A stretch of DNA of 64,000 nt from Ceratodon purpureus. Lineage: Eukaryota; Streptophyta; Bryopsida; Pseudoditrichales; Ditrichaceae. The stretch spans positions 13,394,041 through 13,458,040 of the forward strand of contig CM026428.1 of assembly GCA_014871385.1 (NCBI GenBank), written 5' to 3'. A program made the translations under genes and the position numbers. Under the pieces are notes generated by a model. It did no database searches. It worked only from the letters and a program-made list of their open reading frames with translations, and was not told the origin of the DNA. This document shows, one piece after another, positions 38,200 through 62,590 of the stretch (position 1 is its first letter; every line of letters begins with the position of its first letter).

Positions 38200-39060
38200 G
38201 GTTGTTCAAATAGACGTCCGACCCGGCTCCGGACGTCAAGACGTCCGACCCGGACGTCTCCCGTCCCGGACGTGGCGTCCCCGACGCTCGAGAATTACGC
38301 CGCGGTAATAATTTTGCGACCCCGGAGGGGTAAAAACATTCCCCAGCCGTCCGATCGGCCGATCCCGCCACCACGCCTCATCTCGGCCGTCCGTTCGCGG
38401 CGACGGCCGCGGGGTCGTTGCGGACGGCCGCACGTCGATCCGACGGCCAAGATGCGGCCGTGCTGGCACATTGCGGGCCGTCGGATGTGGGCGGCCCTCC
38501 AGGGCTGTCGGATCCCACGGCCGTCGCCGCGGCCGACCGCGGGATCCGACGGCCCGGATTGATCCCGGCGCAGGCCATCGGGGACCGCTCGATCGGCGCG
38601 GCCAACCGCGGGCCGTCCGATCCCGCGGCCGTCCCCGTGGCCGTCCCCGCGGTCGGCAACGGCGACGGCCGCGGGATCGGACGGCCCGCGGCAGCCATGG
38701 TCGGCCTGGGTGGGCCGTCCGATCGGGCGGCCGTCTCCGCGGTCGGCCGCGGGGACGGCCACTGGATCGGACGGCCCTCCGCGGCCGACCATGGCTGCCG
38801 CGGAGGGCCGTCCGATCCCGCGGCCGTCCGCGTGGGCGACCGCGGGGAGACACGGCCGTCCGCGTGGCCGACCGCGTGCAGACGGGGCCGACCGCGGAGA
38901 CGGCCGCGTCGGTCGGACGGCCACGCGGCGCCATCGCCCGACGCGGCCGTCCGATCGGACGGCCGGCGCCTTCGGGCGGAGTCGCGCCCGATCGGACGGC
39001 CGCGGGGGCGTAGATCGGACGGCCGCGGGGACGGCCGTGGGGACGGCCGCGAGGTCGGCT
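38200..39060. repeat. GC-rich subterminal array, left
   Basis: Dense copies of GGACGGCC / GGCCGTCC in both orientations, mixed with CGCGG, preceded by GGACGTCC-type copies next to the terminus. Base composition is extreme compared with the flanking AT-rich DNA. All six frames are open for long stretches purely because stop codons are depleted. Similar arrays sit at 43680–44340 and 45560–45990. Subterminal motif arrays are typical transposase-binding regions in hAT-type elements; that role is inferred. Confidence 0.85.
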
Positions 39061-39197
39061 TCCCCTATATAAGGGGAAGCCGCCTCTTCATTTTTTACCT
39101 TTTTTCTCCCTTTTCGAGTGAAGCTGATTGCTACTGGTGGGGGACTTGATCCTTCTCCGTTGGTCGTTCTCACCGGGAGGAAAGGGGTCCTTCATTT

Positions 39198-39217
39198 GGG
39201 GGGGGGGGGGGGGGGGG
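39198..39217. repeat. Run of 20 G
   Basis: Homopolymer of 20 G between the left GC-rich array and the kinase-like gene. A similar run (18 G) occurs at 44319–44336. Homopolymers of this size are prone to sequencing or assembly length error. Confidence 0.9.
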
Positions 39218-39348
39218 ACTTTTCGAAATTTTAAACGGTTTTTTTTAAAACCCTTTGGATTTGTATTGCTCTTATTAATCATTGTGGGAATCGAGGGTTT
39301 CTTTGGAGTTGCGGTTACGATTTCTTGAAGCCTTGAAGGCTTTCCACG

Positions 39349-40824
39349 ATGCCAAAGAATAAGAAGCAGAAGAATGTGGGGGAATGGGCGAACAAATTCG
39401 ATGACATGCCGAGCTTACGTTGCAAGGATTATATTGTGGCACTCATCGTGGAATTTTACCAGGAGAATACCCTTGTTTCATTGAATAGTCGTTACGTTCG
39501 GTATGAGGAAGATGGGCCCAGGAAATTCAAGTCAGAGATGGAGACAAAGATTAGGGATCGTTTGATGGATCCGTGCTGGCATTCGGATATACAAAAGCCC
39601 GGTTACGATCATTTCGTGTCACAACGTGCACACGATGCGTTATGGAATGCTAAAGAGGTTATTACTAAGTATGCAAAGGCGCAAAGGGGGGGAGTCCAGG
39701 CCTTCAAGGATACTATTGCAAAGGCAGATTGCTTCACGAGACTAATGGCGCCCCATAGCTCAAGAAAGCATCGACGGGCGTCTATTACTTGGTGGAATTC
39801 TCCGATTGGGATGGAGACGGCGGCTGACTTACGTAAACGGCATTTGACTATCTTGGCAGACTTTGCAGTTTTCTATTACTTGGACAAGGAAGTCCAGAGA
39901 GGTGGTTATGCTACCATACGTAGGGTTCGTATCGAAGGAAACCCGCAAATCCCACCGTACTGGGAGTTTGCTGAGAAACGGCCGCTCAATTGGTCTATGA
40001 GGCCGGATTTGGCACGTGTGGACCACAACAATGAATCTCTTGCGATAAGGATTCCCCATCCTGGTGTCATCCGCTTCCAGGCCATTCATCAGTTGGAACA
40101 TGTGGGATTCATGTTTTGGTGGAACGGTGGGACCCTTCGAGCCATGCTACAGAGAGACAACGAGGCCCCGGGTGACCTCCCCATCGACTACATCTTCAGA
40201 GAGAATGCAGACGACAGTCCGATTCTAGGGAAGCGTCTCCAACTTTTCCGAAGTAAGCGTACAGAGCTTGCTTCGGCATTGTGTAACATCATAGATGCCG
40301 TACACAAATACGGTTACCTCCACAATGACTTGTCACCGGACAACATCCTACTTCACTTTCCGGAAGATGAGTCCAAGATCTACATCGGGGTTTGTGATTG
40401 GGGCTTGATGACGAAGACACTAGAGAACAGAAGGTCGCCTTGGGTTTTTGAGAATGTCCATCAGAAGGAGGAGACTATGAGGAGGCGATACTGGGTGGAT
40501 CCTCGCGTGGTATACGTACACAAGGAAAACCAAGATATTCAAATCATTCCAGATTTGACGGTTGCATCGGAGGATTTCGCAGCTGCGAAGATAGCGGCGA
40601 AGATCAACAGGGGCAACATGTGCACGGCATACCACGAAGCCGAGCCAGTAGAAACACGCCATTTCCAGAATATCGGAGAACTCGCAATGGTTTTCGAAGG
40701 TTACCTTGAGAGAGTTTGCCAAAACAACAGAGGAACGATTGGTGGACTCGGACATCTTATTAACCGTTTCAGAGATACACACAACTGGCCCACTCCCATC
40801 GAGCACTATCGCGAGGGTTACTGA
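39349..40824 (+). CDS. Protein-kinase-like protein carried by the transposon, 491 aa
   Basis: One uninterrupted frame from ATG 39349 to the stop at 40824. The N-terminal 180 residues are unfamiliar and basic (starts MPKNKKQKN). A kinase fold follows: a possible glycine loop GGYATIRRV (about 186–194), a lysine in EFAEKRP (about 210), a catalytic loop YLHNDLSPDNILL (about 322–334) and a metal motif DWG in VCDWGLM (about 350–356) in place of the usual DFG. The essential Asp and Asn residues are present, so activity is possible. No transmembrane segment. It sits inside the 7.8-kb element between GC-rich arrays and has no introns, unlike neighbouring host genes. Its job for the element is unknown; it could be captured cargo. 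Kinase assignment is from motif order, not from a search. Confidence 0.75.
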   Translation: MPKNKKQKNVGEWANKFDDMPSLRCKDYIVALIVEFYQENTLVSLNSRYVRYEEDGPRKFKSEMETKIRDRLMDPCWHSDIQKPGYDHFVSQRAHDALWNAKEVITKYAKAQRGGVQAFKDTIAKADCFTRLMAPHSSRKHRRASITWWNSPIGMETAADLRKRHLTILADFAVFYYLDKEVQRGGYATIRRVRIEGNPQIPPYWEFAEKRPLNWSMRPDLARVDHNNESLAIRIPHPGVIRFQAIHQLEHVGFMFWWNGGTLRAMLQRDNEAPGDLPIDYIFRENADDSPILGKRLQLFRSKRTELASALCNIIDAVHKYGYLHNDLSPDNILLHFPEDESKIYIGVCDWGLMTKTLENRRSPWVFENVHQKEETMRRRYWVDPRVVYVHKENQDIQIIPDLTVASEDFAAAKIAAKINRGNMCTAYHEAEPVETRHFQNIGELAMVFEGYLERVCQNNRGTIGGLGHLINRFRDTHNWPTPIEHYREGY

Positions 40825-41781
40825 TATGGAGTTACATATCTACCTTTCCGTATTCCTATAAAAGCATAATGTTTTTTTTGTTACCGGACGGCGGGCATAG
40901 CTCTCAGTAGTGAATAGTACTATTTACACTCTATATTATTATGAGATGTTGGAATCTCAATTTTTGTACACCGGTCAATATTTTGTTTATAAAGTTTACT
41001 TGCATTTGGTTCAAATATGGTCTCTGTACTAAGATTGGTCTATTTCTACCCCTTGTATTATGAGGAAAACGGATTGGCTCCACACATCTAGCTAAAAGTC
41101 GATACTCTCAATTCTAATTATGAAAATTATGCGATATGTGAATTGTAACCGTTATGTTTTGTAATTTTTATTCTTACAAATATTGGCAAGCGTATACTCA
41201 AGTTCTTTTCGTGAAGACGAAAGCGTAAGGGCCGCAAAACGTGATTGCTCATAATCCTTTGTACAAACAAATACCTTAGATATAAATATGCAGTCATCAA
41301 AAAATATCATTCACGATATTCCTATTAATTTAGCCAAAAAAATAATTGAAAATTATTTTGCATACTGGTCTTGAGATTCATTATATTCAGGTGCTCGTAA
41401 GCCGTAGACTCGTAAGTTGTAACCCATGTCAATAGGAAGTTGTCATTTTAAAAATAGTGATTTTGATAGTAATGTGCACTTCGAATACGGCTACAAGAAT
41501 ATTAAAATGGTAAATTTCTTTCAAATGTGAAGACAACTACAATATAAAAGACAACACAACTACACTCTAAAACACTAATTATATCTATTCTACTTGCAAA
41601 ATGTGGCACGTGCCTGTATTCTTGAGTCCTTACATTTTAAACCTCCATCTACAAAACTGCAAACTACGTACATACTATGCTTGCATCTTTTACTTTCTGT
41701 TGTAAATTTGTAATATGCAAAGTCCACATTAAAGTCTCGGTACGCTCCGATGCTGTAGAAAGTACTACCATGCACCCCATT
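40825..41781. other. AT-rich spacer between the two genes of the transposon
   Basis: This holds the 3' regions of the two convergent genes. There is no additional gene or repeat that I can support. Confidence 0.5.
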
Positions 41782-43283
41782 CTAATAGTCTCCCCTCCAC
41801 CCTAATCCATTGTAGTCATATGGATGATAATAGTTCCCATCATTGGGGAGTTCGCTTGGACCTCCCCGATCGTACGTTTCTTGTGGCCCGTGCCTTGCAG
41901 AATTTGTGGAGGCTCTCAGAAGTCTCTCTCTCTCCTCCATCAATCTTCGATTATCCCGTCTTAGGTGGAACGCATGATTCTCCATCTGTAGTACGTAATT
42001 TTGCCTTGTTCGCTCCAACTCTAGTTCTTCCTCAAAATAGCTATCTCTTACAACTCGACCGGGAGGGTATCCAAAAGGACGAGGTGGTACTCTGTCATCG
42101 CGATGAAGTACGTTGCGGTTGTCCCCGCTATTGTGATCAGTACCGTCGGTGTGATAACCTAGAGGTGGAGGAAATATTCCAGGCGGAGTCCGCGAAGATG
42201 ATCTGTAATCATCTTCTGCAAATAGGGCAGATGGGGTACCATGACCACCATATCCGCGGTATGGAGGGGGAGTTGCGTAATCATCACGTCCCAGTCTCTG
42301 CGTATCTTCTTCGCGATCTGGGGAATAACCGTGAGGTACCTCTCTCGGAGGTGTTCGATGGCGCGGACTAGCACTCCTTGGAGGACTCGGTATTTCCGAC
42401 CAGCCGTCGTCATAGTTACTAAAGTATCTTGATCCCGTTGCATAATCTGGCCACGGTCGTCCCCCATAGGGTCCATACGTGCTATCCGCAAAGTCAAAGG
42501 GTAAATCAGCTCCTTCCGGTTCCCCGTGGCCATAGCCTTGTTCGTGGGGTCCCATGTCCTGACGATCTAGCGAACGGTGTCCCCCGTGGGCAGAGCTTTG
42601 TCCATACTCCTCATGGTTGGTACGTGATGACTCTCTGGCACGATGCCCTCTGCGATTCCTTGGATTTTTGTTTGAGCGACGCCCTCGATAGTTGTCTTCA
42701 TCATCATAGCTTACACGACGTCTCTCCTGTTCCTCATCATTATATTCGATGCTAGAGTTTGTATTCCTGCATCTTGTGCCGGTGGACTCCGACGGTTTGA
42801 AATATGTAATGGGGGACAATCGCTATGTCCACTCCAGTCTGTTACAAGATCCATGCTGTCTCTGTTCATTCTATCTGTCCTCAGGCCCGAGACTGTAGTC
42901 CAGTCAACCCTCTTATGTAAGACTATCTCCGCCCACACCATTGCCATATTCGAATACAACATGATATGAGGTCGGGAGTTCTGGATTCGTGCTGCTCGAA
43001 AAACCTCGTTGTATCGAATTTTGAAATGATTACTTTCACAATTGTCGATCCTGATCTCTCCCCGTGTTGCTTGTTTCTCCGCAGCCTCGGTACGTAGATG
43101 TACTGGGATCAACTTCATGAGGTGCTTCATCTTGACATATTCCTTGCAAGTTACCATCCGCCATGGTGATGGTTCCCCCTCCCATCCAATCTCTGCTACA
43201 CAATCAGGGTCATTCGTAGCGTATGGATCCAAGGGGTGTTTCCTTTTAGGAGTGGAGGGTCCTCCCCGGTCATTACGAGGCAT
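41782..43283 (-). CDS. Arg/Gly/Asp-rich coiled-coil protein in two overlapping frames, carried by the transposon
   Basis: A first minus-strand frame from ATG 43283 ends at 42711 (about 190 aa; contains PRNDRGGPSTPKRKHPLDPY and WRMVTCKEYVKMKHLMKLI). A second frame, open from about 42819 to the stop at 41782, lacks an early ATG. It is rich in RG, RD, SR and PP (RGRRSNKNPRNRRGHRARES; RTPPGIFPPPLGY). It ends in a coiled coil (EEELELERTRQNYVLQMENH, then RRDNRRLMEERERLL). The frames overlap by about 109 bp. The likeliest reading is one gene whose halves are joined by a very short intron (candidate donor gtaaca near 42785–42845) or a frame change. Composition suggests a nucleic-acid-binding, partly disordered protein. 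I recognise no family. Confidence 0.55.
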
Positions 43284-43343
43284 GGCGAAAGTCCGGTAAG
43301 CGAGTAGCTGTGAATACCGTGTATCGTACCAACCTCGTAACAA

Positions 43344-43680
43344 TGCCTGTAACTTCTCCCCACCGTATAAAAGTTGATTTAATCTCGTATATATCTAGTG
43401 CATAAGGACTAAAACGAAACCCAGAACTCCTGCCAAAAAACCGTACGTATGAAGCACTATATTGTTGGTTTCATAATAACCAACAAACGGTGCTGACAAC
43501 CCTAAACACAATCCTACGATAACCCGTTGGGGAAGTAGTAAAAGCTTGGAGGAACGCAACTGAGCTGAAGTAAATCCAGCACATGTAGCACGAGCACCCA
43601 AGTGAAGAAAAAGGAAGAAGGGCCAGCCATTTATGCTGGCCCGAACCCCTAGGCAGCCAGTTAGGTCAAACGACGGCCCC
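43344..43680. other. Upstream region of the Arg/Gly-rich protein gene
   Basis: Probable promoter and 5' UTR of the minus-strand gene, between its start and the second GC-rich array. A hydrophobic minus-strand frame (43395–43560) is open but continues into the array and is not called. Confidence 0.35.
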
Positions 43681-44336
43681 CCTACGGCCGTTGGATCTCG
43701 GGGAATGGAGAATCCAACGGCCGTAACTGGTCCGTCGCGGGAGCGGTCGCGGCCGTCCACGATCGCGGCCGCGACCGGTCGTGCGGCCGCGACCGCTCCC
43801 CAAAGGGTGCGTCGGTGGACCGCCGCCCCGCGGTCGGGACGGCCGACCACGTCGACGGGCGTCCCCGGGGTCGGCCGCGGCCCACCGCGGGGACGGCCGT
43901 GCTCCACCCCGCGGTCGGAGGCTGCAGCGGCCTGGTCGGCCACGGCCGACCACGCCGACGGCCCTTCCGACCGCGGGGTGGGCCGTGGCCGTCCCCGGGG
44001 ACGGCCTTGTCCGACCCCGCGGGGACGGCCGTGCTCCACCCCGCGGTCGGCCACGGCCGTCCACGCGGTCGGCCAGGGCCGTCCACGCGGACGGACCTTC
44101 CGACCGCGGGGTCGGGCGTGGCCGTCCCCGGGGACGGCCTTGTCCGACCCCGCGGGGACGGCCGCGGCCGACCCCGGGGTCGGGGGGCTGCGACCGCGGG
44201 GTCGGCCACGGCCGTCCCCGCGTGGACGGCCGTCGACTGCAGCCGTAGGATCTTCTCGTCGGAGAAGATCCGACGGCCGTCCACGCGGGGTCGGCCGTGG
44301 CCGTCCGCGGGGACGGCCGGGGGGGGGGGGGGGGGG
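43680..44336. repeat. GC-rich array, internal
   Basis: Same vocabulary as the left array (GGACGGCC, GGTCGGCC, CCGCGGGG in both orientations), ending in an 18-G run at 44319–44336. It contains a perfect small inverted repeat (ggatcttctcg and cgagaagatcc, about 44248–44271). Overlapping long frames on both strands are artefacts of composition. It separates the minus-strand gene from an AT-rich right part. Confidence 0.8.
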
Positions 44337-44339
44337 AGG

Positions 44340-45555
44340 GTGGAAGGAACTCCCCTCCCCTTGTGTTTTCTCTCCTCTCCTCCCCCCTCTCCTCCCCTAC
44401 TGTCCCCCCTCCTTCTTGTCCCAAACAATCCCACTTGGGATTGTTTGGACAGCATATCTCCTACAAATGGAAAATTCAGACATATCCCGGATATTGTGGG
44501 GAATGTCCTGAAGATGCTGTGATCGGGGAGGTGGGGTCGACGTTTGAAATTGGGATCCAATGAACTATGTGATATCTTGGTTCTTTGGGGGTGGATAACC
44601 CCCTAGGATCTACAAATAATGTGAACACGTTTATGAAGAAGAATATATATCCTATTGAATGGAAAGAACCGTAAACATTGTGGGTACACTAAAACAGTTT
44701 TTACCAATTGTCATTTAAAGAAACGAAGTTACTCATGTTTTAGCATACGGTAATGAATTAACATTTTATACTAACGAATCAAAAGAGTAAATGTCAACAA
44801 CAATATGATAAGAGGAACATCGCGGAGAGAATGCACTAGAAGTATTTCAACGCATAAATTGATGTACACACTTGGTTTTTCATGCGGTGCACCTTACGTT
44901 TAAATGGTTAAGAGATTTGCCTTTATATTTCACCGGTTTACGGTTTAGGGTAATCTCTTAGAAATATAGATCCAATTTCTTCTCGTTTAGTGGTATACAA
45001 TGAAAATATTTATATAGATTCTTTGACTCTAATTTTTAATGGAATGATTTACCCCAGTTTTATTTCTTTAATTTTACATACTCTCGTTCTTTAGTATTAT
45101 GCTAGAATCAAAAATAAAAACATAAATAGTAGTTTAGATTATGAGAGAAACTGGAGATAATAATAAAGTGAAATAAACCAAAACAAACATTCCATTCTCT
45201 TGGGATTATGCAATTCATGGGAGGAATAAAACTCAAATCATTGTTTTCATAACAAATGGTCCAATTCTAATTTCTCATGGCTGGTTTAGAGTTATTTGAA
45301 ATATAAAAACTCTCCTTCGTCTTTAATGTCTTTTATTTTACAAACTTCCATACCGTAGTACTGTGTTATCATTAAAAAAAAAATAAAAAATCACTAGCTC
45401 ACATTATGAGATGAGGAAGGGATAATAGTAAAAAACAAAATTAAAAAAGAAAACATTCAACCGTCACTGAATAATGCCAATTCAGAAGTGTAATGGCAAC
45501 TTTCAGGAGGGGTCTTTTATACTCATTCCCTGAAATGCCAAGGGGTAAGCCCTAA
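44340..45555. other. AT-rich non-coding interior of the transposon
   Basis: CT-rich for about 100 bp after the G run, then strongly AT-rich without supportable genes. Two stretches look loosely similar to each other (tttactttaat and taataataaagtg near 45050–45180; tttgaaatataaaaactctcc onward near 45300–45430), suggesting old duplication. Confidence 0.4.
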
Positions 45556-45559
45556 AAAT

Positions 45560-45990
45560 CAACGGAGGACGGCCGTCGAGGCCGTAAGTCAACGACGGGC
45601 CGTCCGATCATGGACTGTCACGGCCGTCGAAGGGGCCGTCGCCGGGGACGGCCCCCCCCACCGCGGCGACGGCAAGGGGCCGTCGCCGGGGACGGCCCCC
45701 CCCACCGCGGCGACGGCCAGGGGTCGTCGCCGGGGACGGCCCCCCCCACCGCGGCGACGGCAAGGGGCCGTCGCTGGGGACGGCCCCTTCCCGACGCGTC
45801 CGACGGCCCCCCCCGCTCCGCGGCGACGGCCGCACCCTCCCCCGCAACCCCTCCGCCGCGTAGAAGATGTGGTTTCACCCCGGGGTGAAACCTATGCGGG
45901 TGATTTTTTTTTTCTAAGTCACAGGACGTCCCCTGGCGCTGGCGGACGTCCGCGGACGTCCCCACGTCCCGAGCGTCCCGGACGACCGTG
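45560..45990. repeat. GC-rich subterminal array, right
   Basis: Tandem units of about 42–43 bp (ccccccaccgcggcgacgg plus caaggggccgtcgccgggga) occupy 45640–45790. GGACGTCC copies follow up to the right terminus. This mirrors the left end of the element, where GGACGTCC copies also lie outside the GGACGGCC copies. Confidence 0.85.
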
Positions 45991-46125
45991 ACAACCCTGA
46001 TTGGGAATCTATATTAGCAAAAAAATTGACTTCAATTACATCTCTCCATCACTTTTGTGCAATTTTTGCAAAAGGGCTGAAACTGACATATAGATAAGCA
46101 CTTTTTTGGTCCACTTTATTGTGCT

Positions 46126-48418: not shown

Positions 48419-51400
48419 CTATTTCTTTGCCAAAGGGTGAGTCAAGATTCCACTCTCTAGGACTATCTTGACCTCGTTGAAACTAAAGGTGGGCGCATGG
48501 ATGAAAAGATCGGCGTCCGGGTCACGATTGCAGACCTTCAATAGAATGTAATAAAGGTGCTTGCAATAAGAGAATTGCGTCCGTCCTTTGAACTTCGTCA
48601 TGGTCTTTCTGAATGCAGGGCAAGTGCAAGCTGGGTAGGAGCTGATGGTGATGTGGTACTGTGTGATGGCTGGAGCAACGCCGGAATCTAGCCCGATGAT
48701 GCAACCATGGCCCGGGTGAGGTATCATAGTGACAGAGCGCAGGCAAGCTTTGAGTGAGTCGGATGAGCCCATTGAGAGGCGCTGCGCCGGATTTGGACGA
48801 GTGGCAGTGCGTTTCACCATCTTGCCGTCTCTCTTACCAGGGTAGCGGTCAGCTTCTGCAGGAACAGGTACTGATCTCAGATTTGCAGGAGGAGGGGCAG
48901 CAGAGAAGAGGCGTCTTGGGGAGACGGGGATCTTCTTTGGGAGTTGAAACCCTGCCGCTTCGAGTGCTCGAATTTCCGTGAGATTTAGGTTTGTACCTAG
49001 CTTGACCGGCCAAACCTCTGGAATCGGAGGCATCTCTTGGTCCTTAGAGTATTTGGCAACCCACCTGCGTCTCGTACCCTTTACACACCTCTCGATGTCG
49101 TCGGAGCAGAAAAAGAACTCTGTCTTCTCAGCTATGTTTCTGCGAAAGTTGGTCCAGATTCCGGTGTAGGTAGGTGCTGCAGTTGAATTAGCACCCCTTA
49201 CAATTCTCTCGGTACACTTCTTCTTCGTAACTGCTCTCTGTGCCCAGCAACACTTGGCGGAAGTCTTGAGCAGTCTTGAAATGTGCCACTCCTTGACATT
49301 GACCCTGGTTTCTTCAACTGCATTGACATGACGAACCCCCTTCTCGTTCACAGGTGATGATGGGGTATCCTCGGATGATGCTGCCGTAGGTTGAACTTCA
49401 ACTACCTCTATCTCATCTTCGATGTCATCTTCAACTATGACAGGTATTGTCATAGTGCGAGCCCTGACAGAACGTCCTGAACCTTTAGGATGAGAATAGT
49501 TTACCTTGTCCGGACGATGTGATTCTTCTTCAGCTCCAATAGGAAGGTCTGCCTTCCGTTTGATAGACCCAAACACTTCTTCTCCTGGCATGTGAGGCAG
49601 TCTTGTGCAGAACTCATGAGCACCGGGCATCTCCAACATCGCATCCTCTAGCAGTATGGGGTTTCCTGTCTTTTTGGCCCTGCGTTCAGCGTTCCTTAGC
49701 TTGAGTTCCTTCTTGGATGGTCCCGTTCCGCCCACGTCACCTTTCAGGAACTGGTAAAAGTTGACGACCTGTAGAAATGCACGGACGAAGTCGTCCACAG
49801 TAGCAACATACAAATCCTGGCCATTGTTCCCTGAAGCTTGGAGCCATTTGTTGTGGACAGTTTCGGCCAGGTTGCATGAAGGCATCTCTGAGAATTCTTC
49901 TTCTGTAAATTTCTGCAAGAGGGGCACACAAAGTTTTAGAATGGATAAATAAACCTTGACGAGAGAGCTTAATTTGAAGAAGTAGGCCAATAAGTTAGAT
50001 AGGAATTATCATACCTGGGTCATGAAGCCTCCCCACTGTCGAATACGGTAATGCCAGAATGCAAGCCAGAGCTCAAGCTTGTTCAGGGCCTTCTCCGACA
50101 CTATTCCTGCGGATACCCACCAAGCGCGAAGGGCGTTGTACAAGGTATCCGCTTCTTCCATACTCTGCGCTTTTCTGTACTGGTGACACATTTTCTTGTG
50201 CTGTTCCCACAACTCCTCTGGGATGTGCTTCTCCGTGTGATTGACCATGGATTGTGTCCAATGGAACAGGCAAGTTCTCTCTCTGTCCACCATCGGGTCC
50301 TCCTTATTGCCATTTCCATACACAACTCGAACTGCGTTCCAGTTGGCTTGAGCGCTGTCCGCCATGAAGCCCTTAAAGTTTGGCGCCTTGACGCCATTCC
50401 TTTCCATGACCTGGTTGAGGTTCTGCCAAAATAGAATTTGGGCTTGGCTATCCTCGGACTGCATGTCACATGTGGCAATCGTCATGACACGACAGTAGGT
50501 CGAGTCGTACACGTGGCACGCCATCGTGGTCCAGTACTTTACTCTTTTCACATGATCAAACATGACCCATGCGTTCTGCAGATCTTCACCGGGCTGCATT
50601 CTTCTCACCAAGTCGACGCCACTTCCAGGTCCAACTTCAGACATCTTGAAGAGGAACACCTTGTCAAGATCAGCCCCCTGCCCTGGAAACTTGTTCTCTT
50701 GGACATAGGCCCAAAGACTGATACCACGGAGCTTGGTGATGGCGTCCATGACTCCGTACCTTCTCAGCAGCCTGAATGTCATCACCTTGTTGCGGATATT
50801 TGGGGAAGCCATGTCCTTGCACCGGTCAAGTACGGGAACAAGCTCCTCCATCGTCAGTTTCCTCGGGGGTGCATCTTCAGGCTGAAGAAGATAACTGCCA
50901 ATCAGGACCTTGCTCGCCTCCAACACGACGGCACTCTTCTTAGCTCCAGGAGTATTCTCAACTTGTTCCTCGATCAGGCTATTGATCTCTGTCTTAGAGT
51001 CCCTATAGTCCCCTACCTTGACTGGGTGATCATGAGTCCCAACATGGATACATGCCCTAGTCTGATTTAGTTTGCCATAAACATAATAAATCTTAGCTCC
51101 ACATGTAGCAATACATGCAGGAGGTTCCTTACATACCTTGCAGACCAGTGTTGAACTTGTTGGGGGTGGCTGACCCACCAGAAACGCTTGAAGGGTACAT
51201 CCTTCAAACTCCGTCTCGTTGACCTTGGCGATTCGAGGCTGACGGTTCAGAAAGTCACAGTCTTTGTTGTTGCATCGCAGCCAACCAGCGCAGACTGAGT
51301 AGCGAAACGAAAGGCCAACGTCGTTAGTGATGTTGGTGGTCTTCGTCTTGGTCCAGACATGGCCATCGTAACGCTTGTCCATTCCTTGCATTGCCTTGGC

Positions 51401-52141
51401 CTGCAACTTCGCAGCTCCTTTAACAATTGGGGGAAGCTCAAAAACTACAGGACCGTCGAACACTGCAGGCAAGTACTCAACCTTCTCGTGTCTCACTCTT
51501 GAATAATCTATTTTTTTGAGAATGTTTTTCTTTCCAGGTCTCTTTGCAAGTTTCCTAATAAGCGGAATTACACTAACAGCCTCCTCTTCTACGGATTGGG
51601 AGGTACTGGCACATTTGTCTGGAAGTGTAGTTGGCAAGCTAGATTCTACAGCCTGTCTAGAAACATCAGGTGATGCTTTCAGAGGACTACTCTCCTCGTC
51701 TGAGGAAAGGGTTATGACAGGCGTCATTGCTGGAGTATCTAAGCCAGGCTCTACCTTCACCTTGACATCACGAGGGAGAGGAGTCTGAATAGTACAAGTA
51801 GATGACCGACGAGGAGTTAGAATCTCAGTGGACGCCTGCATCTGGGACTCTGTGAGACCATAAACTCTGTACCTACCAGGATAAAGGTTCCAGAACCTAT
51901 TATCATCATCATCTTTCTCAGAAACCTGATCTTGGGTATGTGTGATCTCATGAGTCTCATCGTCATAAATCTCTTCCTCTATACTAACAGTGTCCTCTCT
52001 GAAGTGAAATCTGAGGCTAAGGCGTTGTGCCGTCACAAATGCCAAGCCATCCTCATCTACACGTACTGTAAGTGGAATTCCAACACCATGCGCTCTAAGC
52101 ACGGCCATGCCTAACACTCTGTCTGCAGGGAGATGAGCCAT
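48419..52141 (-). CDS. MULE-transposase-like protein with C-terminal SWIM zinc finger
   Basis: Two coding exons: 52141–50015 and 49912–48419, joined by a 102-bp intron (cag/gtatga to ttgcag/aaa), giving about 1206 aa with no break. The N-terminus is acidic and Ser-rich. About 280–400 is a Cys/His-rich region resembling the WRKY/GCM-type or FLYWCH-like zinc domain ahead of MULE transposases (CAGWLRCNNKDCDF; CKVCKEPPACIATC; THDHPV). A DDE-type core follows: VYDSTYCRVMTIATCDMQSED, then FKGFMADSAQANWNAV and CLFHWTQSMVNH. After the intron comes HNKWLQASG and, near the C-terminus, the SWIM motif CTCPAF to YCKHLYYILL. This is the layout of Mutator-like transposases and their domesticated relatives. 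No terminal inverted repeats were found, so mobile versus domesticated is open. Confidence 0.8.
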
Positions 52142-52648
52142 CGGAGGGAGAGAGGATAGTACTTGAGTAAAGAATTTGAAATTCTAGAATGAGAGGAATG
52201 TTGTTTCGATTGCCATCAATTTATGCAATAGTGTAACTGTCAGGACCCACCCGATTTTTAAAAAAACATCAATGAACGAATGTAGTTCGTTAGGTTATCT
52301 TTCATAACACTTATTTTTATCATGTAGCCGCCCTATGAAATCGGGACATCATGCTAAGAATTCAACTTGCTCACCAAATTCTCTATGATTAGTATTAGCC
52401 GTCTTTCCAAGCGTAAAGTGAAAGAATGTTTTGAATTTAGAATGAATCATTAATTCTGACTAGTTAGTTGTTTATTTCAAGGTCTAAGCTAATTAAGATA
52501 GATCTAGTGGGCATCTAGGGGCATAGCATTTTAGGTTTATATCCCTTTAGCAAGTTCCAGTGTAAGTCTTTAGAGCTGAGGACTGAGGGCTGATACAGGG
52601 TCTTCGTTTATATGAGGGTCGCAGATCCGGTTATGGTTTCTGAGTGAC
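52142..52648. other. Intergenic region between two divergent genes
   Basis: About 500 bp separate the starts of the minus-strand SWIM gene and the plus-strand ParB–methyltransferase gene. It must hold both promoters, possibly shared. No specific element is recognised. Confidence 0.5.
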
Positions 52649-55600
52649 ATGCAGGCAGAGGTTAAGAAGAAGAGAAGGAGAAGGACCACGCATTATAGTA
52701 ACCGGAAAGCACTAGTTAGTAGTAGAATGGCAAAGGTTAGGAAACAAAATGAGAGGTTTGAAAAGAGTGGAATAACTAGAGTATTGGAGTTTCAAGAGAC
52801 GCCAGTTGTAGATAGTGAAGAACCTAAGGAGAACACAAAGCAGTACGAGCGTCGTGGGAGGAACGCGAGGATTGTGATGTCTGAGAAAAGTGTTACGGAC
52901 GAAACAGAGGTGAGCTTTGGGCAAACATGTATCCTTTATGCAAACTTGTGAAATTGTTATATACAATGTTCCATATTATATCAGTTTAGAACATTTACAG
53001 TTGTTTGGATAGCTTTGATGCTTAGTCACTTCGTTATGATTTGTTTGTTCTGATTGAAAATGGAAGCCATTGCAATCTGATCATACCAGGAGTCTAGGTA
53101 GCCGTCGACTGTGTCACAATCATAAGTAATACGGCGCCCGCATTTTTAATGGAGGCAAGTCACATCATGCATTACAAACTTATCATAACAGTTCGTTCAC
53201 TTGAGAAACTAGTAAGGATAGCGATGACTAGTAAGGATGTAGCTAAACCAGGTCGGCTGAAATTACTTTGGTCTTATGATTTTAACCATTTAAGCTCATT
53301 TTGTTAGATTTCACCATTGGATACTCGAGATTGGACATTCTGTTTATCAGAAGCCTTGTTTATTCAGACTCGGTCTTTTTCAAAGTTGCTATCGAGCCTC
53401 GGTTGTCGCATCTCTTCCGTAGCTTAAGTTCTTTATCCCTCATTCAAGTTGCGGAAATGGTATGCCATTTTTTCAAAGTTCCGCTTTAGGGTTCCCATCT
53501 TCTACGACTTTGAGACTTGCTGACGGCTGTCTTGTCTCTGCAGGTGCCGCATACTAAGCGAAACACACGCGCGAAGTCTGGTTCCATGGAGGTGGACAAG
53601 GAACAGCCGTCGGGTACCGCGATGCAAGCTCGTGAAGCACAAGGGGAGGCTGAGGAACTTGGAGGCACGAAGGATGATGGAACTGCCTCGGGGGGAGGGG
53701 AGGATGCAACCACACAAGGAGGAGAGACAGAGGCTCATTTTGGTGGGGCTGAAGAAGAAGGAACCGACATCCAACTAACGCAGCAAGACACAAGTGGTAA
53801 GATGATTTTCGAAGTCATTCTTTTTATTTGAACAGTTTTAGGTTTCTAGATTCTCTTCATATGAGTTGCCGTTGCCGGCATCTAGTCCTACTTGCCCTGT
53901 CTTGCTAGAAAACCTGATAACGAGGGTGCGGAAGATTGCTTCTTTCCTATATAATCTAAGGCAAATGTCGGCTAAGGCAAGTGCTATTCGTTAGGTCCTT
54001 GTAGTCTTGCTGCCCGTAGTCTGGTCCAAGAAAGTGCACCCGCAAAGAGCTATGTATCCCAGGAGCTTGCTTTTCTCGATGCCGCTGCCGGCATCGCCAA
54101 AGGCTTGTTCATTATCTCGCGACACAGGTAATGTTATTGCGTTAGTTGAGTTTTAGAAATGTTGTAATGTCCATATGTTGAGTGGCAGTAATGCTGATCT
54201 ACGAGAGTTACTGTCTTGACAGTGGTAGTAGTATGTACGCTAGTTATCTCAGACGGTAGCTGCATTGGACTCCAGATCAGATTTTGTGTCTCGCAAATGT
54301 CGTCTTGACATCAATGCCGGCAACGGCGATGCCGTTAGATTGATTTTCGGTAGTTCAAAAAGGTCAGATCCCTTTTGGGCTGCAGTCAACACATCTGCAA
54401 AATGTCAAGGAACAAAGCAATGCCGGCACCGGCATTGCTCGGAAACCGTAGATTCTTATTGAACTATTCCATGCCAAGGCCATGGAGAAGCTGATCCAAA
54501 CCCGGCTGCAGTCATTGCGTTGAATATTATTTTTGCAAAATGTTAAAGCTATGAGCGATGCCGGCGACGGCATCGCTCTTCGAGTGGATATTTATCATAG
54601 TTTAGTCTCTCCCAAAGCCAATGCCGGCAACGGCAATGGCCAAGGGAAGCCCGACTGAGTGCCGGCTGCAGTCATTGCGTTGAATATTTTTACTCCAAAA
54701 TGTCAAAGCCATGAGCGATGCCGGCAACGGCATCGCTCTTCCAGTGGATATTTATCATAGTTTAGTCTCTCCCAAAGCCAATGCCGGCAACGGCAATGGC
54801 CAAGGGAAGCCCGATTGACTGCCCGCTGCAGTCATTTCGTTGACTGTTTTTTTTGCAAAATGTCAAAGCCATGAGCGATGCCGGCAACGGCATCGCTCTT
54901 CGAGTGGCTCATCAGTTCACGGCATTGCTTTGTGGGCCTAGTAATATACCTTATAGCCGTCATTATTTTCCTGTTTTAGTCACTGCCGGTAACGGCGAAG
55001 TCCTTCATGGAGGCTTGTGATCATATATCACGCAAATTATATATTTATGCATAAATTCTACTTAGCAAATTTTGTAAAAAGGATGAATTATTGTGTTGCC
55101 GTTGCCGGCATGGATTATTTTGCTGTTTGTTAGGCTTTATTTGACACCTTCAACTGTGCCTTACCTGCAGCGGCAGGGGTATTTTGATGGTAGGCCGCAT
55201 ACTTTGGAACCCGATTCCTCTGTTTGTTTGGAGTCTATTGAGAGGGCTATGTTGTCAATAATGTGAGATGCCGGTAACGGCGTTGGTTATTATGGAAGGT
55301 TTGATTATTAGGAAGTTCGAGAAGACAGCTTTGCCGGTGTCAAATTTATTTAAATCGATTACGCAAACAGTACTGCCGGCAACGGCATGAGCGAAAGGAT
55401 GAATTAATTATGTTTCCTTTACTGTAAATTCGATACAAGTCCTTCTAGGAAACCAAAGACTGAAAGCAAATATGCACCTGGTTTGTAGTCTCATCCTGCT
55501 ATGAGAGCCTATGCTATTTCTTTGAAAGCTTACTAAATTTTTGTAATGTACACTATATTTTATGATGCCGTTGACGGCAATGCATATGACTATAATTCCA

Positions 55601-58600
55601 GGAGTTTTTATTAATACCACAAGTAACAGTCTATGTGGAATTCTGACCAGCCGGGTCTTGTCATTAACCTTCTTTGCAGATCCGGACCCGATTCAGCTAA
55701 CACGGAGCGAGGTCAATTCAAAGCTTCATGATCTTGTTGGTGCAGCCACCGGCAATACGGCGTCACGATTGGACGCTTTGAAGTGGCAGCCGAGGTCCAA
55801 GAGCAGACTAAAAATTCCTCTTTGCAGGATGATATCGCTGCCGGTTGTTCGACCGTACCTCAAGGGTGATGTTTCTACCCTAGCGTCGTATTTTATAGCC
55901 AGTGGGTATATGGAGGGGAACGGATTCTTTTACGTGTCAGCTGTGGATAACAACGGGCAATCAGCAGAGGTTACCAGAGAAATATCGGATTCCTGGAGTC
56001 CAGAGTGGCGGCAGGTCAACGACGAATTTGAGAAGATGCTACAAGCAGACGAAGACTTGTGTGTTTTCTCAGGTGTAATGTTCATGGTCTGGGACGGCAA
56101 TCACCGATTGCAGGCTTGGATGCCTCTAATCAACGAGTACCATAAGGGAGACATAACGTGGCATTATTCCGTGGATAGTATTATCCTTGATCCAAAGGGT
56201 GATGTTCCAGCGGTGGTGGCGGTACTTCATGATGTGAACTGGTAATTATTTTCACGACTTCAATTATTTGATGGTTATTGTCTGCTTGTGATTTTTGTAG
56301 TATTGATTGCTTTCATGCGTTTTTAACCATGGCCTTAACGTGTTCAGGAGAAATCAAAAGTCGCATGTCAAGGCAAATATAGTTCACAAACTATACCGCA
56401 TTCAGAGCATAGCTCCACAACCAATTTCCTACTTCGAAGGTTTAGTATCTAGCGCTGCTCTGGAAGCAGCTAAGGCCAAGCAGGCAGGAAGGTCGCGGAC
56501 ATGGTATACTTTGACTTTGGAATCTCTGAACGCGGTTCTCAATCAGGTAATGTTCCTTATTTGTTTTAAATTCATTAAATCAACATTTTCTAACAAGCAA
56601 AGAGACTGACTTTGTTATTGTTTTCTTGCATGTGACTTTTGTAGCAAGAGTTAGCAGAGGCCGCAGCTATGGCTGAGCGAAAATTTTACGAGAAGTTTCC
56701 TGAAGAACGTCAATGGACAAACAAGTCAGTTGACGACTGGGTTAACCAAGCAGTCAAGAAGGTGGAGGACGGTCAGCAGTCCGATTTGAGAAAATTGTTG
56801 CCTATTGCGGACCCCGAGCTTGGATCCGAGTTCCTTCAGGAGATTAAGATCCATTACGAGAAATATGATGATAATGCGGAGATGCTCAAAGAGAAGCTGT
56901 GGATGTTTGCTACCTCTGCTATGCCGAATAAAATGAAGATCAAATGGCTGCAAAGGTGGAATTCCTCATATGCAATTAGAGAGTCGCACAAGTTCCCCAA
57001 GAAGAATTTCTCAGATGTCGTATTCGGAGTTTGGTTACAGAAAGCTACTTGGTGGGCACAGGTATGCTACATTGGTTTTCGATTATGGTTTTGGTGATAT
57101 GAGAGAGGGATTTAAAATTCTAAATGGCTTGTAGCATCTGTTAGAACCAGTATGTAGGTGGGCAAGCTGAGGGAGGTCTATATGAAAGGGTGCCGGTGTT
57201 TGCCTTTGCCGTTGCCGGCAGAGCTCTCAAATCAGAATTGACGGGGTATTCGGGTACGGCTAGCAGTACGGGTACGGACCCGGGTAAGGGTATGTACTGA
57301 TATGTCGTTGACGAGAAGGGCTGCCGGTGTCCATAGGGGGGGTTGCCGGTGCCGGCACTGCGAGGCCAGGGCTGTTCGGCAATGAGCTAGGAGTATGTGG
57401 GGTATATGGGATGGGGCATGGGGTAAATGGGATGAGGTATGTGGGATGGGGTTTATGGGATGGGGTATGCGGCATGGGGAATGCTGCATGGGGTATATGG
57501 GATGAGCTTTGTGGGGTTGGGCATGCGGGATGGGGTAGCAAGATGGGGTATATGGGATGGGGCATGCTTGGGATTGGGTCAGTTTAGGTGTCCATTTATG
57601 CGATGCCGTCGCCGGCAGTTAACTTAAGGCACGGAATTTTTTATCTAGAGTTCTCTTTGAAGATTAAATGGGCTAGTTGCAACAGGTCAGGGGCAGGGGA
57701 CAGGGGTCATCAGATCAGATTATTTGAGAGTTCTAGGAGCAAACAATCTGATGATTAAGCTCATTGAATCGCAGTTGGCGGTCGAGGCCGAAGAGCTTTT
57801 TAACGGCGTCATTGAGGACATGGGTGTGTCCATCCAGTACAACCCGGATGGGCAGGATCCAATGGAGAACATATTCGACTATGTGGACTCTATGCGCTGT
57901 AATCTATGGGACACGGCGTTTTTTAGGGAATTCAAGGGACAGGAGCCAGTGCACAAGAACAAGTCTGCGCAAAATCAGCCCAACTTCTATCCTGCACTTC
58001 GAAGGGTCATTTACAGGTACTTCAAATATGTCCTTTTCCCAAGGAAGGCCATATCGAAGGTGCCGGCATTCTTCCCAAATTACTTGGATGTGAATGGGAG
58101 TGAATGCATGTTTACTCACGCTATCATGAAGGCATGGGACCCCTGCCATTATGAACGTTGCGGGTGGTATCTAGATTGCCCACCCGCAAAACCGCCATCA
58201 TTTGATATTGCTCTTCGCGACTCCCTACAGCCGGCCCTGTCCAAGCTGCCGGCGACTACACCCACGCGGCGGTCGTCTGGATCGCCTCAAGAATCCACTC
58301 CGAAAGGCAAGGGCGCTGCCAAACCGGGGACGTCACGTGCAGGAAAGAGGAAGGCATCAGATATTGGAGAAGATGAAGAAGACGAGGACATTCCTGCCCT
58401 GAACGTGGCAAACAGCAAACAAGATGAAGCAGCCGCGGTCAAGAACACAGCAGTCGCTCAGGTAACTCAAGCGAAAAAACGGGGAGGTCAGGGATCCCGT
58501 ATGGAGGGTGCAGCAAAGCTTCCTGTTGTTGTTGTGCCAGATAATCGCGTTATGGATTTCACTCCTCCATCGGTAAAATCAATGTCACAGTCTCAGGTTG

Positions 58601-60361
58601 TAACATCCTCGAGTGCAGCGTCAGAGGTACTTATTATCAACGACTCCGTGCACGGGATGCTTGAGTATAAAAGTAAACATGGGAAGTTTCCAACAACGTT
58701 CGATGAGATGAATTCATTCCTGACGAAGGTATGTAATCTCCTTTACTCGCTTTTGTTCAATTTATGTGATTTGCTTTTAATCCAGTAATGTTTACCTTAT
58801 GCCCTGCCCAAACCTTGAACCATGTCGAACTCTCAATAGCACTGCCGGCAGCGGCAGTGCTAAGAAGGCTTTACTTCATATCTCTTCTCACACCATTCGG
58901 GTCTATCTATCAATTTCTTTTTATGTGGGCTCTTTTTATAAATAAACCATAATCTTGGGATGTCGACCTTTGGCTGAGACCAACTTTTATGTCCACCATT
59001 GGCTTTGATCAAGTTTTCTAAGACTTATGTATTTACTATCTTTTAGGTTGGTGGAAGCAAACAATTTTACTTCCAGGGTCGTCTTGTCCAGAAACCGGCC
59101 GCGGATTTTATTATCGTTGAGTACCCAGATGGCCTTCCTGTACCAGGATTATCAAGTGCTGCCCCGAGTGTGCCTGCTTGGAACATGGTAATAAAGGATT
59201 TTCTAAAGTATATCATTGGCTTCTGTGGAGGGTATTTGCATGACGACGGAGGTCTTCTCATTTTCTATCCCGAGAGCTCGCAGATAAGGAGGGAGATTGA
59301 ATCCTACCTGAGAAACAATGACCTGAAGGTCAAAGACGAATGGACAATTATCAACTCAATGCACCTTACGCATCCAACAAACCCTTCAAAATTTGTAAGC
59401 ATATAAACACATCAACAGCCTCTTCATTTTGATAACTTTATTTTCTTTTTTATTTGCCAAGTACTTACCATGCTTTCTTTAAATTGCAGACCCTCAAGTT
59501 TAAAGCTCTTCTATTGGTTCGTTCCATGCCCTTATCAGTAAGGCAGCCAATGGAGCTAGTAATCAAGACAAGTCCACGTTTTGGAAAGGTTAAACTCGAA
59601 AAGGACGACTGCATCAACAATGTCGTCACAGATGATACGGCAGTCAAAGTTCAGAAGGATGGGACGCTCTGGAGAGGACCTAAAGAGAAGGCAGTATCTT
59701 TCATGGAATTGCTTATCACTGGCCTTTGCCCAAACAATGGCATAGTGATTGACCTTATTGCTGGTACAGGTACGAAATGAGATCAATATATTTTCTGGTT
59801 GTTTTCTTACAGTTCTTATCGTGTTTGTTTTACTGTATTTATGAATCTGGTTGCATGTAACAGGGGCATCCATTCGAGCCGCTATGAATACAAGCAGGCA
59901 CATCCTAGCTCTTGAAGCTGACCCTGGACTTTACACAGAGGTTCTAGTACCACTTCAGCCTACCACTCCGATCTTAACTGCAGACGTTCCGACGCTAGAC
60001 GATGACGATGAGGAGGCTCTTCCGGACGTGCATCGAATAGATCTTTGTAAGTAAGTCATTTATGTTAAACGTTGTAGAATTGTCATACTTGTACTTCTAA
60101 TTTACGACCATTATTTCTGACCCGTGCGCTGCTTTTAACCATTGCAGTTTGAGTTCAAGTAGCTCGATGGTTGGATGGGAGTCACCATCAACCTCAGACC
60201 TTCAGTTGCCATGCTATGCAGAAAGTCTGGCTATCCAATTGGCCGAGCAATTTTCCGAAAGCTCCAGTGCCTCCTCTTCACCATTCGGGAAATTCGATCC
60301 TAGAGCCCGCGTTTTTTTGGATTTAAGTGCTTCGGAAGGTGAGGAGGAATTCAGTGCTTGA
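52649..60361 (+). CDS. ParB-like domain / N6-N4 DNA methyltransferase-fold protein
   Basis: Ten exons with consistent phase: 52649–52909, 53544–53796, 55680–56241, 56348–56546, 56645–57061, about 57691–58728, 59047–59394, 59490–59769, 59864–60050, 60148–60361, giving about 1250 aa. The N-terminus is basic (KKKRRRR) then Glu/Gly-rich. Exon 3 encodes a ParB/sulfiredoxin-like domain ending in VWDGNHRLQAW. Later exons hold a beta-class amino-methyltransferase fold. ADFIIVEYPDGLP sits where the (D/S/N)PP(Y/W) catalytic motif is expected. GGLLIFYPESSQIRREIE follows, and then the S-adenosylmethionine site VIDLIAGTGASIRAAM with ALEADPGLY. ParB–methylase pairings are typical of phages and bacterial mobile DNA, yet this copy has spliceosomal introns. 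The replaced catalytic motif makes base methylation doubtful; a binding role is possible. The first base of exon 6 is uncertain. Confidence 0.75.
54382..54910. repeat. 160-bp tandem repeat carrying the palindromes
   Basis: Three copies with a 160-bp step start at gcagtcatt (54507, 54667, 54827; the last is partial). A diverged fourth copy lies upstream (54382, 125 bp long). Full units contain two hairpins: one with GAGCGATGCCG arms and one with GCCAATGCCG arms. The upstream copy has the first hairpin with changed but still complementary arms and lacks the second one. The array lies in intron 2 of the ParB–methyltransferase gene. Confidence 0.9.
57375..57580 (+). repeat. G-rich minisatellite, GGGATGGGGTATAT-type
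   Basis: About fourteen imperfect 14–15 bp units such as gggatggggtatat fill this part of intron 5 of the ParB–methyltransferase gene. Repeated GGGG runs on the plus (transcribed sense) strand could form G-quadruplexes. An open frame across it is due to composition. Confidence 0.85.
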
Positions 60362-60560
60362 GCAGTTAGAAGTACTAGACGTTCATTTTAGGATTCTATG
60401 TACCTTGTAATCCACATTTTCTGGATTTTGTATTGGATTCTAATTGAGTATTTTCGGTATTCGGGATTTTTTTTTTCGTGCGACCATTTTGTTATTTTTT
60501 CCTCTCATATTAACAGATCAGTCTCCCCATACTTCAATGCCGGCAACGGCGCTCGCTTAG
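60362..60560. other. 3' flank of the ParB–methyltransferase gene
   Basis: T-rich presumed 3' UTR, ending with the last palindrome copy at 60538–60551. Confidence 0.45.
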
Positions 60561-60569
60561 TGGGCACGA

Positions 60570-62590
60570 GTTCCCTGTTTTTAATCCTACTCCTTCAACA
60601 CTGTTACACCAGTATTCCCCTGCCCTATCCCCCCTACCCACTTTACTCTAATCACCCTGTCACCAAAATCCCCATTAAGATCCTAAACCCCCTAAACCTC
60701 CTTCCCGATTAACGCCCTAACCCCCCCTCTGGCGGTCACACACGACCCCACTCCCTTGACACACCCTCGCGGTCACTCCCTATCCCATCCCTAAACCCCC
60801 CTCCCCCCTGGCGGTCACTCCCTATCCCATCCCTAATCCCCCCTTCCCCCTCGCGGTCACTCCCTATCACTAAACCCCCTCCATCCCTCGCTTCACTCCC
60901 TGTCCCACTCCCTCAACTCTCCCTATCCCTCCCCCTAACCTCCCCCTCACCCCTCGCTTCACTCCCTGTTTCACCTAGTCACTCAGCACTCCCTATCCCT
61001 CCCCCTTACCCAACCCCCCTCCCCTCACGGTCACACCCTGTCCCCCTCTGTAACTACCCTTCCCCTACCCCCGTCACTCCCTCCCGGTCACTCCCTGTCG
61101 CTCCTCCTAAACCCCCCCTCCTCCCCTCACTTTAACTCCCTGTCCCCCCCCTGGAACCCCCCTTCCCCCACCCCCGTCACTCCCTCGCGGTCACTCCCTA
61201 TCCCTCCCCCTCAACCCCTCATCTCCCCTCAAGGTCACTCCCTGTCCCTCCCCTTAGAACCCCCTAAAAGTATTAAAAAATTAAATGATGCTACATGCAT
61301 GTTGCTTTTGAAAGGGAAAAAAGATTTTGTAAAAATGATTGGAATACATCATTATTTTAGAAGATGGGTAAACAAAAATAAGTAACACTTAAGATATTTT
61401 AATGTGTTGAAAATGACTACAACATTTCGGTGTATAAATGAATGTCATTTGAGTTTATCTTTTGAAATTTGATCTTAACAATAAATTCTGTATGTATTGA
61501 ATGTTCATAAACTATTACCGATTATATTTGTTCTAATGTCTGTATTTATTATATTCATTTTTGTCTTCATTGATTTTAAGTTTTGATCCCCTTACCCCCA
61601 TCACTCCCCCGCGATCACTCCCTTTCTCTCCCCTCACGGTCACTCCCTGTCCCTCCCCCTTGAACCCACCTCCCCTCGCTGTAACTCCATATCCCTCCCC
61701 CTTCTGTCACTCCATATCCCTCCCCCTTACCCGCATCACCCCCTCGCGATCACTCCCTTTCCCTCCCCTCACAGTCACTCCCTGTCCCTCCCCTTAGAAC
61801 CCCCTTCCCCGCGCCTTTATTTCCTATCCCTCCCCCTAACCCCCATCACTCCCCCGCGGTCACTTGTTGTCACTGCCCCTAACCCCCCCCCCCCTCCCCT
61901 CACGGTCACTCCCTGTCCCTCCCCCTTGAACCCACCTCCCCTCGCTGTCACTCCATATCCCTTCCCCTTACCCCCATCATCCCCTCGCGATCACTCCCTA
62001 TCCCTCCCCTCACGGTCACTCCCTGTCCCTCCCCTTAGAACCCCCTTCCCCGCGCCTTTATTCCCTATCCCTCCCCCTAACCCCCATCACTCCCCCGCGG
62101 TCACTCCCTATCCCTCCCCTCACGGTCACTCCCTGTCCCTCCCCTTAGAACCCCCTTCCCCGCGCCTTTATTCCCTATCCCTCCCCCTAACCCCCATCAC
62201 TCCCCCGCGGTCACTTGTTGTCACTGCCCCTAACCCCCCCCCCCTCCCCTCACGGTCACTCCCTGTCCCTCCCCCTTGAACCCACCTCCCCTCGCTGTCA
62301 CTCCATATCCCTTCCCCTTACCCCCATCACCCCCTCGCGATCACTCCCTATCCCTCCCCTCACGGTCACTCCCTGTCCCGCCCCTTAGAACCCCCTTCCC
62401 CGCGCCTTCACTCCCTATCCCTCCCTCTAACCCCCATCACTCCCCCGCGGTCACTTGTTGTCACTGCCCCTAACCCCCCCCCCCCCCCCTCCCCTCACGG
62501 TCACTCCCTGTCCCTCTCCCTAGAACCCCCCTCCCCTCGTTGGCACTCTATATCCCTCCCCTAACCCCCATTACTCCCTTATTATCGTTC
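60570..62590. repeat. C-rich satellite array in two blocks
   Basis: Blocks at about 60570–61265 and 61590–62575 consist almost only of C and T on the plus strand, with phrases ggtcactccctgtccctccc, ccctaacccccatcactccc and cccccttccccgcgcc. In the second block the phrase cctcacggtcactccctgtc recurs at about 61635, 61769 (one change), 61902, 62009, 62122, 62252, 62359 and 62494, a higher-order period of about 107–135 bp. The minus strand carries runs of four or more G. AT-rich DNA (61266–61590) separates the blocks. Open frames here are not genes. Confidence 0.9.

Follow-up and report, generated by a model that had tools for sequence, protein, structure and literature searches.

Short palindromic hairpins confined to the non-coding DNA of one gene in a 64-kb window of Ceratodon purpureus: a candidate local repeat family

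Background

What would place nineteen copies of one short palindromic hairpin in the introns and 3' flank of a single gene? We address this question in a 64,000-nucleotide stretch of Ceratodon purpureus DNA (assembly GCA_014871385.1, contig CM026428.1, forward-strand positions 13,394,041 to 13,458,040), hereafter the window, in whose own numbering all positions are given. The gene concerned, hereafter the host gene, lies on the plus strand at 52649..60361 and has a C-terminal DNA-methyltransferase-like region. Short palindromic repeats have been described chiefly from organelles, and the available portion of PMC2670323 reads the copies in the Volvox nucleus as inert transfers. The explanation that we tentatively prefer, while placing it a little short of probable, is that the hairpins are a family of short palindromic repeats that was spread and homogenized locally by duplication and by template switching at hairpins.

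Results and discussion

Number and placement of the hairpins

A scan of the whole window with the pattern TGCCGNNNNCGGCR gave 34 strand-matches, corresponding to 19 distinct positions between 53867 and 60551. Each is a 14-nt motif, TGCCG-NNNN-CGGC(A/G), with a 5-bp core stem and a 4-nt loop. Fifteen have a perfect 5-bp stem and are hence matched on both strands; the other four (54315, 54984, 55269, and 60538) end in G and have a terminal T-G pair on the sense strand. One hundred whole-window shuffles contained 0.05 matches on average and 2 at most, which rules out a chance origin. A preliminary description of this DNA had reported 19 copies, all non-coding and beyond chance expectation, and the scan and gene model confirm each of these points. 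Its statement that copies occur in both orientations holds for the loop but not for the stem, which is palindromic.

Outside this interval, over ~57 kb, there is no full copy in the window, so that the absence of copies elsewhere, also noted previously, stands for the TGCCG form. The shorter core GCCGNNNNCGGC occurs at 22 positions in the window, and the three beyond the 19 (45641, 45685, and 45729) all lie inside a DNA transposon at 38197-45999. Half-sites (TGCCG or CGGCA, full copies included) reach 21 per kb in intron 2 of the host gene, compared with 1.2 per kb in positions 1-52648. Given this distribution, a general genomic micro-repeat that is clustered here by happenstance is a highly improbable explanation; for scanning the genome, the search pattern of the family is TGCCGNNNNCGGCA.

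Within the host gene, 14 hairpins are in intron 2 (53797..55679, plus strand), whereas intron 5 holds three and intron 6 a single one; the last is in the 3' flank, 177 nt beyond the stop codon. There are no exonic copies in the 10-exon model, and the pattern scan of the window found none upstream of the gene. With 3,958 nt of introns and 3,755 nt of exons (an exon sum 4 nt below that of the final model), the probability of finding no exonic copy is 6e-6 for 18 independent copies and 2e-4 for 13. The introns had been called AT-rich, which is partly right, the GC content being 0.44 in intron 2, 0.52 in intron 5, and 0.38 in intron 6.

Kinship among the copies

The 19 hairpins are not 19 independent events. 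Five of them belong to a 160-bp tandem repeat on the plus strand of intron 2 (54502..54907; 2.5 copies, 92.7% identity between units). Three of these five have 11-bp stems: 54553..54578 (core 54559-54572, loop GCGA), 54713..54738 (core 54719-54732, loop GCAA), and 54873..54898 (core 54879-54892, loop GCAA). The other two, at 54622..54635 and 54782..54795, also have GCAA loops, and the arms of the former re-pair past one mismatch. The hairpin at 54416..54439 (core 54421-54434, 10-bp stem) is a diverged relative of the tandem unit, with 21-24 of 40 flank letters the same as in the three array copies that it resembles; random pairs average 10. Read inverted, the hairpin at 54077..54096 (core 54080-54093, 8-bp stem) shares 19-20 of 40 flank letters with the same array copies, a level that about 1 in 600 random pairs reach, and because 342 comparisons were made, it is only a possible relative of the array, inverted and diverged. 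Since five copies share the tandem repeat, 54421 is related to it, and 54080 possibly is as well, merging relatives leaves 13-16 loci. The main statistics below use 16 loci, with one row for each of the two tandem-copy classes plus 54421, related rows thus being included; stricter sets comprise 14 or 13 loci, the latter without the array members and 54421.

Flanking sequence of the 13-locus set is more alike than expected over 0-20 nt (identity 0.294 versus 0.253, a value reached by 0 of 1000 random sets), and identity is also raised at 12-20 nt (p 0.009). This suggests that some copies were probably dispersed as pieces larger than the hairpin and then drifted.

The other hairpins of intron 2 are at 53867..53880 (loop TTGC, which is GCAA on the other strand), 54315..54328 (GCAA), 54984..54997 (GTAA), 55097..55110 (TTGC), 55269..55282 (GTAA), 55374..55387 (GCAA), and 55566..55579 (TTGA). 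Those of intron 5 are at 57207..57220 (TTGC), 57344..57357 (GTGC), and 57604..57617 (TCGC). The intron 6 hairpin spans 58837..58862 (core 58843-58856, 11-bp stem, loop GCAG), and that of the 3' flank 60538..60551 (GCAA).

Outer arms and loops

The hairpin unit extends past the core, and so past what the preliminary description had recognized, forming a hairpin of 22-24 nt with outer arms. Perfect stems of 8-11 bp are present in six of the 19, three of which are tandem copies, and the arms of the 16 loci tend towards a consensus of GCRA ahead of the core and WYGC behind it. Changes in the arms tend to compensate each other: 24 cells are changed on both sides, compared with 16.3 +/- 3.1 after shuffling (4/500), and sliding the partner gives no more than 14. 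Of the 64 loop letters, 55 agree with a GCAA consensus, whereas random loop sets average 31.5 and reach a maximum of 37 (n=400), and because so many letters fit one consensus, the loops appear to share a common descent. Counting either strand, 14 of the 19 loops are of the GNRA type, as previously described (10 sense, 4 antisense, and 5 neither).

GNRA loops might hint at an RNA role, and 18 of the 19 hairpins are intronic. We regard it as very unlikely that they act in the pre-mRNA as transcribed structures, in splicing, processing, or back-splicing. The predicted fold of intron 2 is more stable (-631) than those of 12 shuffles (-545 +/- 11), but such extra stability is expected from any hairpin family, and five of the 14 hairpins of this intron are missing from the minimum-energy fold (nine are present). 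On the sense strand, all four terminal variants are T-G (U-G in RNA) and never C-A, which hints weakly at a role in RNA, although the four may be one subfamily. GNRA loops are found on both strands, and the arm mismatches of the 16 loci (11 G-T and 9 A-C) show no clear sense-strand bias; this symmetry weakens the case for a tetraloop function in RNA and leaves the hint from the GNRA loops unsupported. No Rfam family reaches its cut-off within the host gene, the best match in 52600-60800 being ryfA (E 0.15, 19.2 bits versus a cut-off of 80). Further, the compensating changes in the outer arms do not discriminate, since template switching at the DNA level would give the same signal as structured RNA. 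DNA-level explanations of the hairpins fit better than RNA-level ones.

A fixed core

The four inner stem pairs are invariant across the 16 loci. No inner-stem letter has changed (0/128), whereas the loops have nine changes from GCAA (9/64; p 3e-5); over the whole stem there are four changes, all at the last letter (4/160; p 0.002). This contrast is partly circular because copies were selected by an intact stem, and it falls to p 0.018 when two possible decayed copies are added, with a third candidate in existence. The decayed-copy candidates, from a two-mismatch search, are at 53966, 55162, and 57461; all are non-coding, clear of intact copies, and differ by two mismatches each, and the remaining two-mismatch matches in the cluster overlap intact copies or are exonic. 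Five variants of the core that CpG decay would give have no match in the window.

A fixed core could mean that the hairpins are an array of putative sites for a dimeric, sequence-specific protein, either a regulator of the gene or the gene's own product, an explanation that we consider unlikely. Selection on such a site would hold the inner stem constant and leave the arms and loop freer to vary. The stem-to-loop contrast argues for it to the extent that its circularity allows, as does the conservation of the arms, which is roughly symmetric about the hairpin centre. The 4-nt spacer is itself conserved and asymmetric, unlike a mere spacer, and the lack of hairpins upstream of the gene also weighs against a site array.

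Local spread by duplication and template switching

The preferred explanation, a repeat family multiplied in place, would run as follows. A unit with the 14-nt core TGCCG-GCAA-CGGCA inside a 22-24-nt hairpin would have multiplied within one nuclear gene, in its non-coding parts, copies being tolerated solely outside the exons. Some copies would come from larger segments that were duplicated in tandem or in inverted order. Others may be made during replication, when template switching at a hairpin could also repair arms and flip loops, and homogenization between copies could keep them alike; function would be unnecessary. The hairpins would then most likely be DNA that is selfish or neutral, the nuclear equivalent of palindromes that crowd the organelle genomes of some green algae. 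Among the instantaneous compensatory changes that the available text of PMC8794818 ascribes to template switching, loops of 4 nt and of the GNRA type are enriched; the process is reported there to make perfect stems and, less certainly, to mend them. Micro-inversions of loops, together with the gain and loss of palindromes, are described from a plastome in the portion of PMC7043297 at hand, and such inversions would explain why both loop senses are present here.

Several observations weigh against this explanation. Stem repair alone predicts covariation in the core like that of the arms, and the inner pairs do not vary in the 16 loci. Candidates for decayed copies are few, three in all, and variants expected from CpG decay are absent from the window, whereas nuclear copies in Volvox, by the available account (PMC2670323), are often degenerate. 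The fixed core and the scarcity of decayed copies therefore point to sequence-specific constraint or to strong homogenization between copies; an invariant inner core would fit copying between repeats that share it, or selection for a bound site. In the 13-locus set, flank homology falls short of significance both at 3-6 nt (p 0.155) and at 20-40 nt (p 0.194). Related copies among the 16 rows inflate the covariation and arm tests, and the other four covariation measures are less striking than the doubly changed cells (paired cells 52/500, pairs with change 100/500, further types 99/500, and covariation score 19/500 shuffles). Pairing of the arms compared with re-dealt flanks is also weak (p 0.025 for 6 nt, p 0.066 for 8 nt, and p 0.70 for the first pair).

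Comparison with known palindromes

Organelle-type palindromes are the closest likeness. The family described here consists of hairpins within the range of 10-100 nt, present in many copies and both orientations and restricted to introns and intergenic DNA. As far as the accessible part of PMC2670323 goes, the organelle and nuclear repeats of Volvox carteri are likewise short hairpins that share a recurring type of loop and occur in both orientations, nearly limited to introns and intergenic DNA, and nuclear copies of them exist, many degenerate and thought to have been transferred from organelles. They differ in averaging ~50 nt, in having TAAA/TTTA loops, and in filling organelle genomes; the hairpins here have a 14-nt GC-rich core, are confined to one gene within 64 kb, and are largely undecayed. 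The plastome palindromes of Chlorosarcinopsis eremi, again from the text available of PMC7043297, are mostly non-coding and undergo loop inversions and a turnover attributed to break repair, but have AT-rich stems and 3-nt loops and are plastid. The LIMP element of the Lobosphaera incisa mitochondrion (PMC4524435, in part) offers nineteen copies of one intergenic palindrome with a conserved loop; it differs in its stems of pentanucleotide repeats, its 7-nt loop, and its mitochondrial location. The likeness to algal organelle palindromes proposed in the preliminary description thus holds for the portions of these three papers, and the hairpins may work like the palindromes described there, as a resemblance rather than a settled membership.

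In the literature covered, which includes few subscription journals, there is no account of the motif or of a gene-confined nuclear hairpin family, and searches there for nuclear, intronic, or bryophyte short palindromes returned either nothing or organelle work and unrelated papers. Elsewhere, the two-copy hairpin pattern was found in 68 stretches of viral contigs and in one of prokaryote genomes, with a maximum of six copies. None of these 69 stretches was annotated; copy number and GC were obtained by script, and 281 bases of one AT-rich contig were viewed.

The host gene

The gene model was built by hand from open frames and GT-AG sites. It has exons at 52649-52909, 53544-53796, 55680-56241, 56348-56546, 56645-57061, 57691-58728, 59047-59394, 59490-59769, 59864-60050, and 60148-60361, all on the plus strand, and comprises 1,252 codons with a stop ending at 60361; all nine introns are GT-AG. 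Exon 1 and the acceptor of intron 5 are its least certain parts. The gene had been labelled ParB–methyltransferase. A modest match to a PHROG DNA methyltransferase (E 6.7e-7) points to the second half of this label; the Pfam match to N6_N4_Mtase (E 0.0017) is below the cut-off, and the PDB gave no match for this part. The Pfam scan used a 1,158-aa variant, which takes a different acceptor for intron 5 and stops early at the final junction, rather than the 1,252-codon model, and a regular expression for a DPPY-type motif IV found none in this variant. The sole basis of the ParB half is a GNHRLQA motif, and the searches left it unconfirmed: for that domain there was no match in Pfam, PHROGs, or PDB, and a single irrelevant one in NCBIfam. 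A single-sequence structure prediction for exon 3 (pLDDT 40) was too poor for use, and a search of viral contigs with 173 aa of the gene confirmed no close relative. That the intronic cores are recognition sites, kept by selection, for the host gene's own ParB/methyltransferase-like product, serving self-marking or self-regulation, is extremely unlikely.

Mobile elements in the window

Plant DNA transposons, CACTA/En-Spm and hAT elements among them, have subterminal repeats, which are short motifs in many copies and both orientations within a limited non-coding stretch; these repeats adjoin the terminal inverted repeats and bind transposase. Were the host gene the cargo of a mobile element, the hairpins could be family-specific repeats of this kind, which again seems unlikely to us. 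One DNA transposon in the window, 7,803 bp long at 38197-45999, has an 8-bp target duplication (ATTGGGAA) and 9-bp inverted ends (CAGGGTTGT/ACAACCCTG), and its flanks, once joined, can be aligned through the junction with an unbroken copy, at 26293-26536, of the repeat in which they lie (217/245, 89%), which supports an empty site. From its ends we take it to be hAT-like. Its non-coding DNA is rich in GC-rich palindromes, which favours cargo, with many of them in GC-rich blocks at 38200-39100, 43500-44500, and 45560-45990 (for example, GGCCGTCC-NNNN-GGACGGCC); these have mostly 4-6-nt loops and are more numerous than in local shuffles, but their sequence is not that of the hairpin family. The transposon also carries a weakly kinase-like frame at 39337-40824 and unknown frames at 41782-43394 on the minus strand, and no transposase was recognized in the three frames scanned.

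Also consistent with cargo is a weakly IS256/Mutator-like transposase frame (E 0.006) head-to-head with the host gene. It is one of two long frames at 48419-52183 on the minus strand, the second of which has a SWIM-like cysteine pattern by eye, and together they possibly represent a Mutator-like transposase. Candidate ends at 53268 and 62740, with a 7-bp duplication (AATTACT) and an 11/12 inverted repeat, enclose most of the host gene; neither 40 shuffles nor 13 further pairs of regions contained their match. However, they would cut intron 1, which is inconsistent with exon 1 of the model, and in five of those 13 pairs an inverted repeat just as good accompanies a duplication of 6 bp. A looser scan for duplications of 8-11 bp in three region pairs gave scattered matches with at most 9/14 inverted letters among the matches listed. 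The stricter scan required 10/12 inverted letters and missed the control transposon at 38197-45999, so true ends may escape it; with that limit, the end scans found no convincing element ends around the host gene, and in this, as a soft negative, the hairpin cluster is unlike CACTA/hAT subterminal repeats. The hairpins also cluster in introns, away from the ends of any element found, and a literature search on CACTA subterminal repeats found nothing.

Intron 2 as a single inserted miniature inverted-repeat transposable element was rejected, there being no 5-11 bp duplications at its ends. A loose end scan of this intron gave 12 matches; the best 8 of these 12 have 2-bp duplications only, and several are the hairpins themselves. 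By eye, no consistent direct repeats flank the 19 hairpins within +/-25 nt.

Other features of the window

Just downstream of the host gene, at 60600-62580, is a CCCTCCCC-type minisatellite with nested periods including 110, 240, and 350 bp. Hairpins with stems of at least 10 bp number three in the first 1-37 kb, compared with 0.2 in shuffles, and a 209-nt inverted repeat (24655-24863 and 37115-37323) is 84% complementary over its two arms, 12.3 kb apart. The only Rfam match at the gathering threshold in the window is a U5 snRNA at 25077-25189. A kinase fragment near 31.5 kb, found with Pfam, is plant-receptor-like by eye. The snRNA and the GT-AG introns show by sequence that the window is eukaryotic, and the snRNA and the kinase fragment suggest a nuclear genome of plant type.

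Conclusions

A function of the hairpins, if there is one, goes beyond the present evidence from sequence, and local spread of a palindromic repeat family would need none. A nuclear family of this kind, concentrated in one gene, largely undecayed, and with arms that compensate each other, would lend itself to study of the self-copying and repair of hairpins, and it could show if the fixed core stems from function or from the mechanics of copying.

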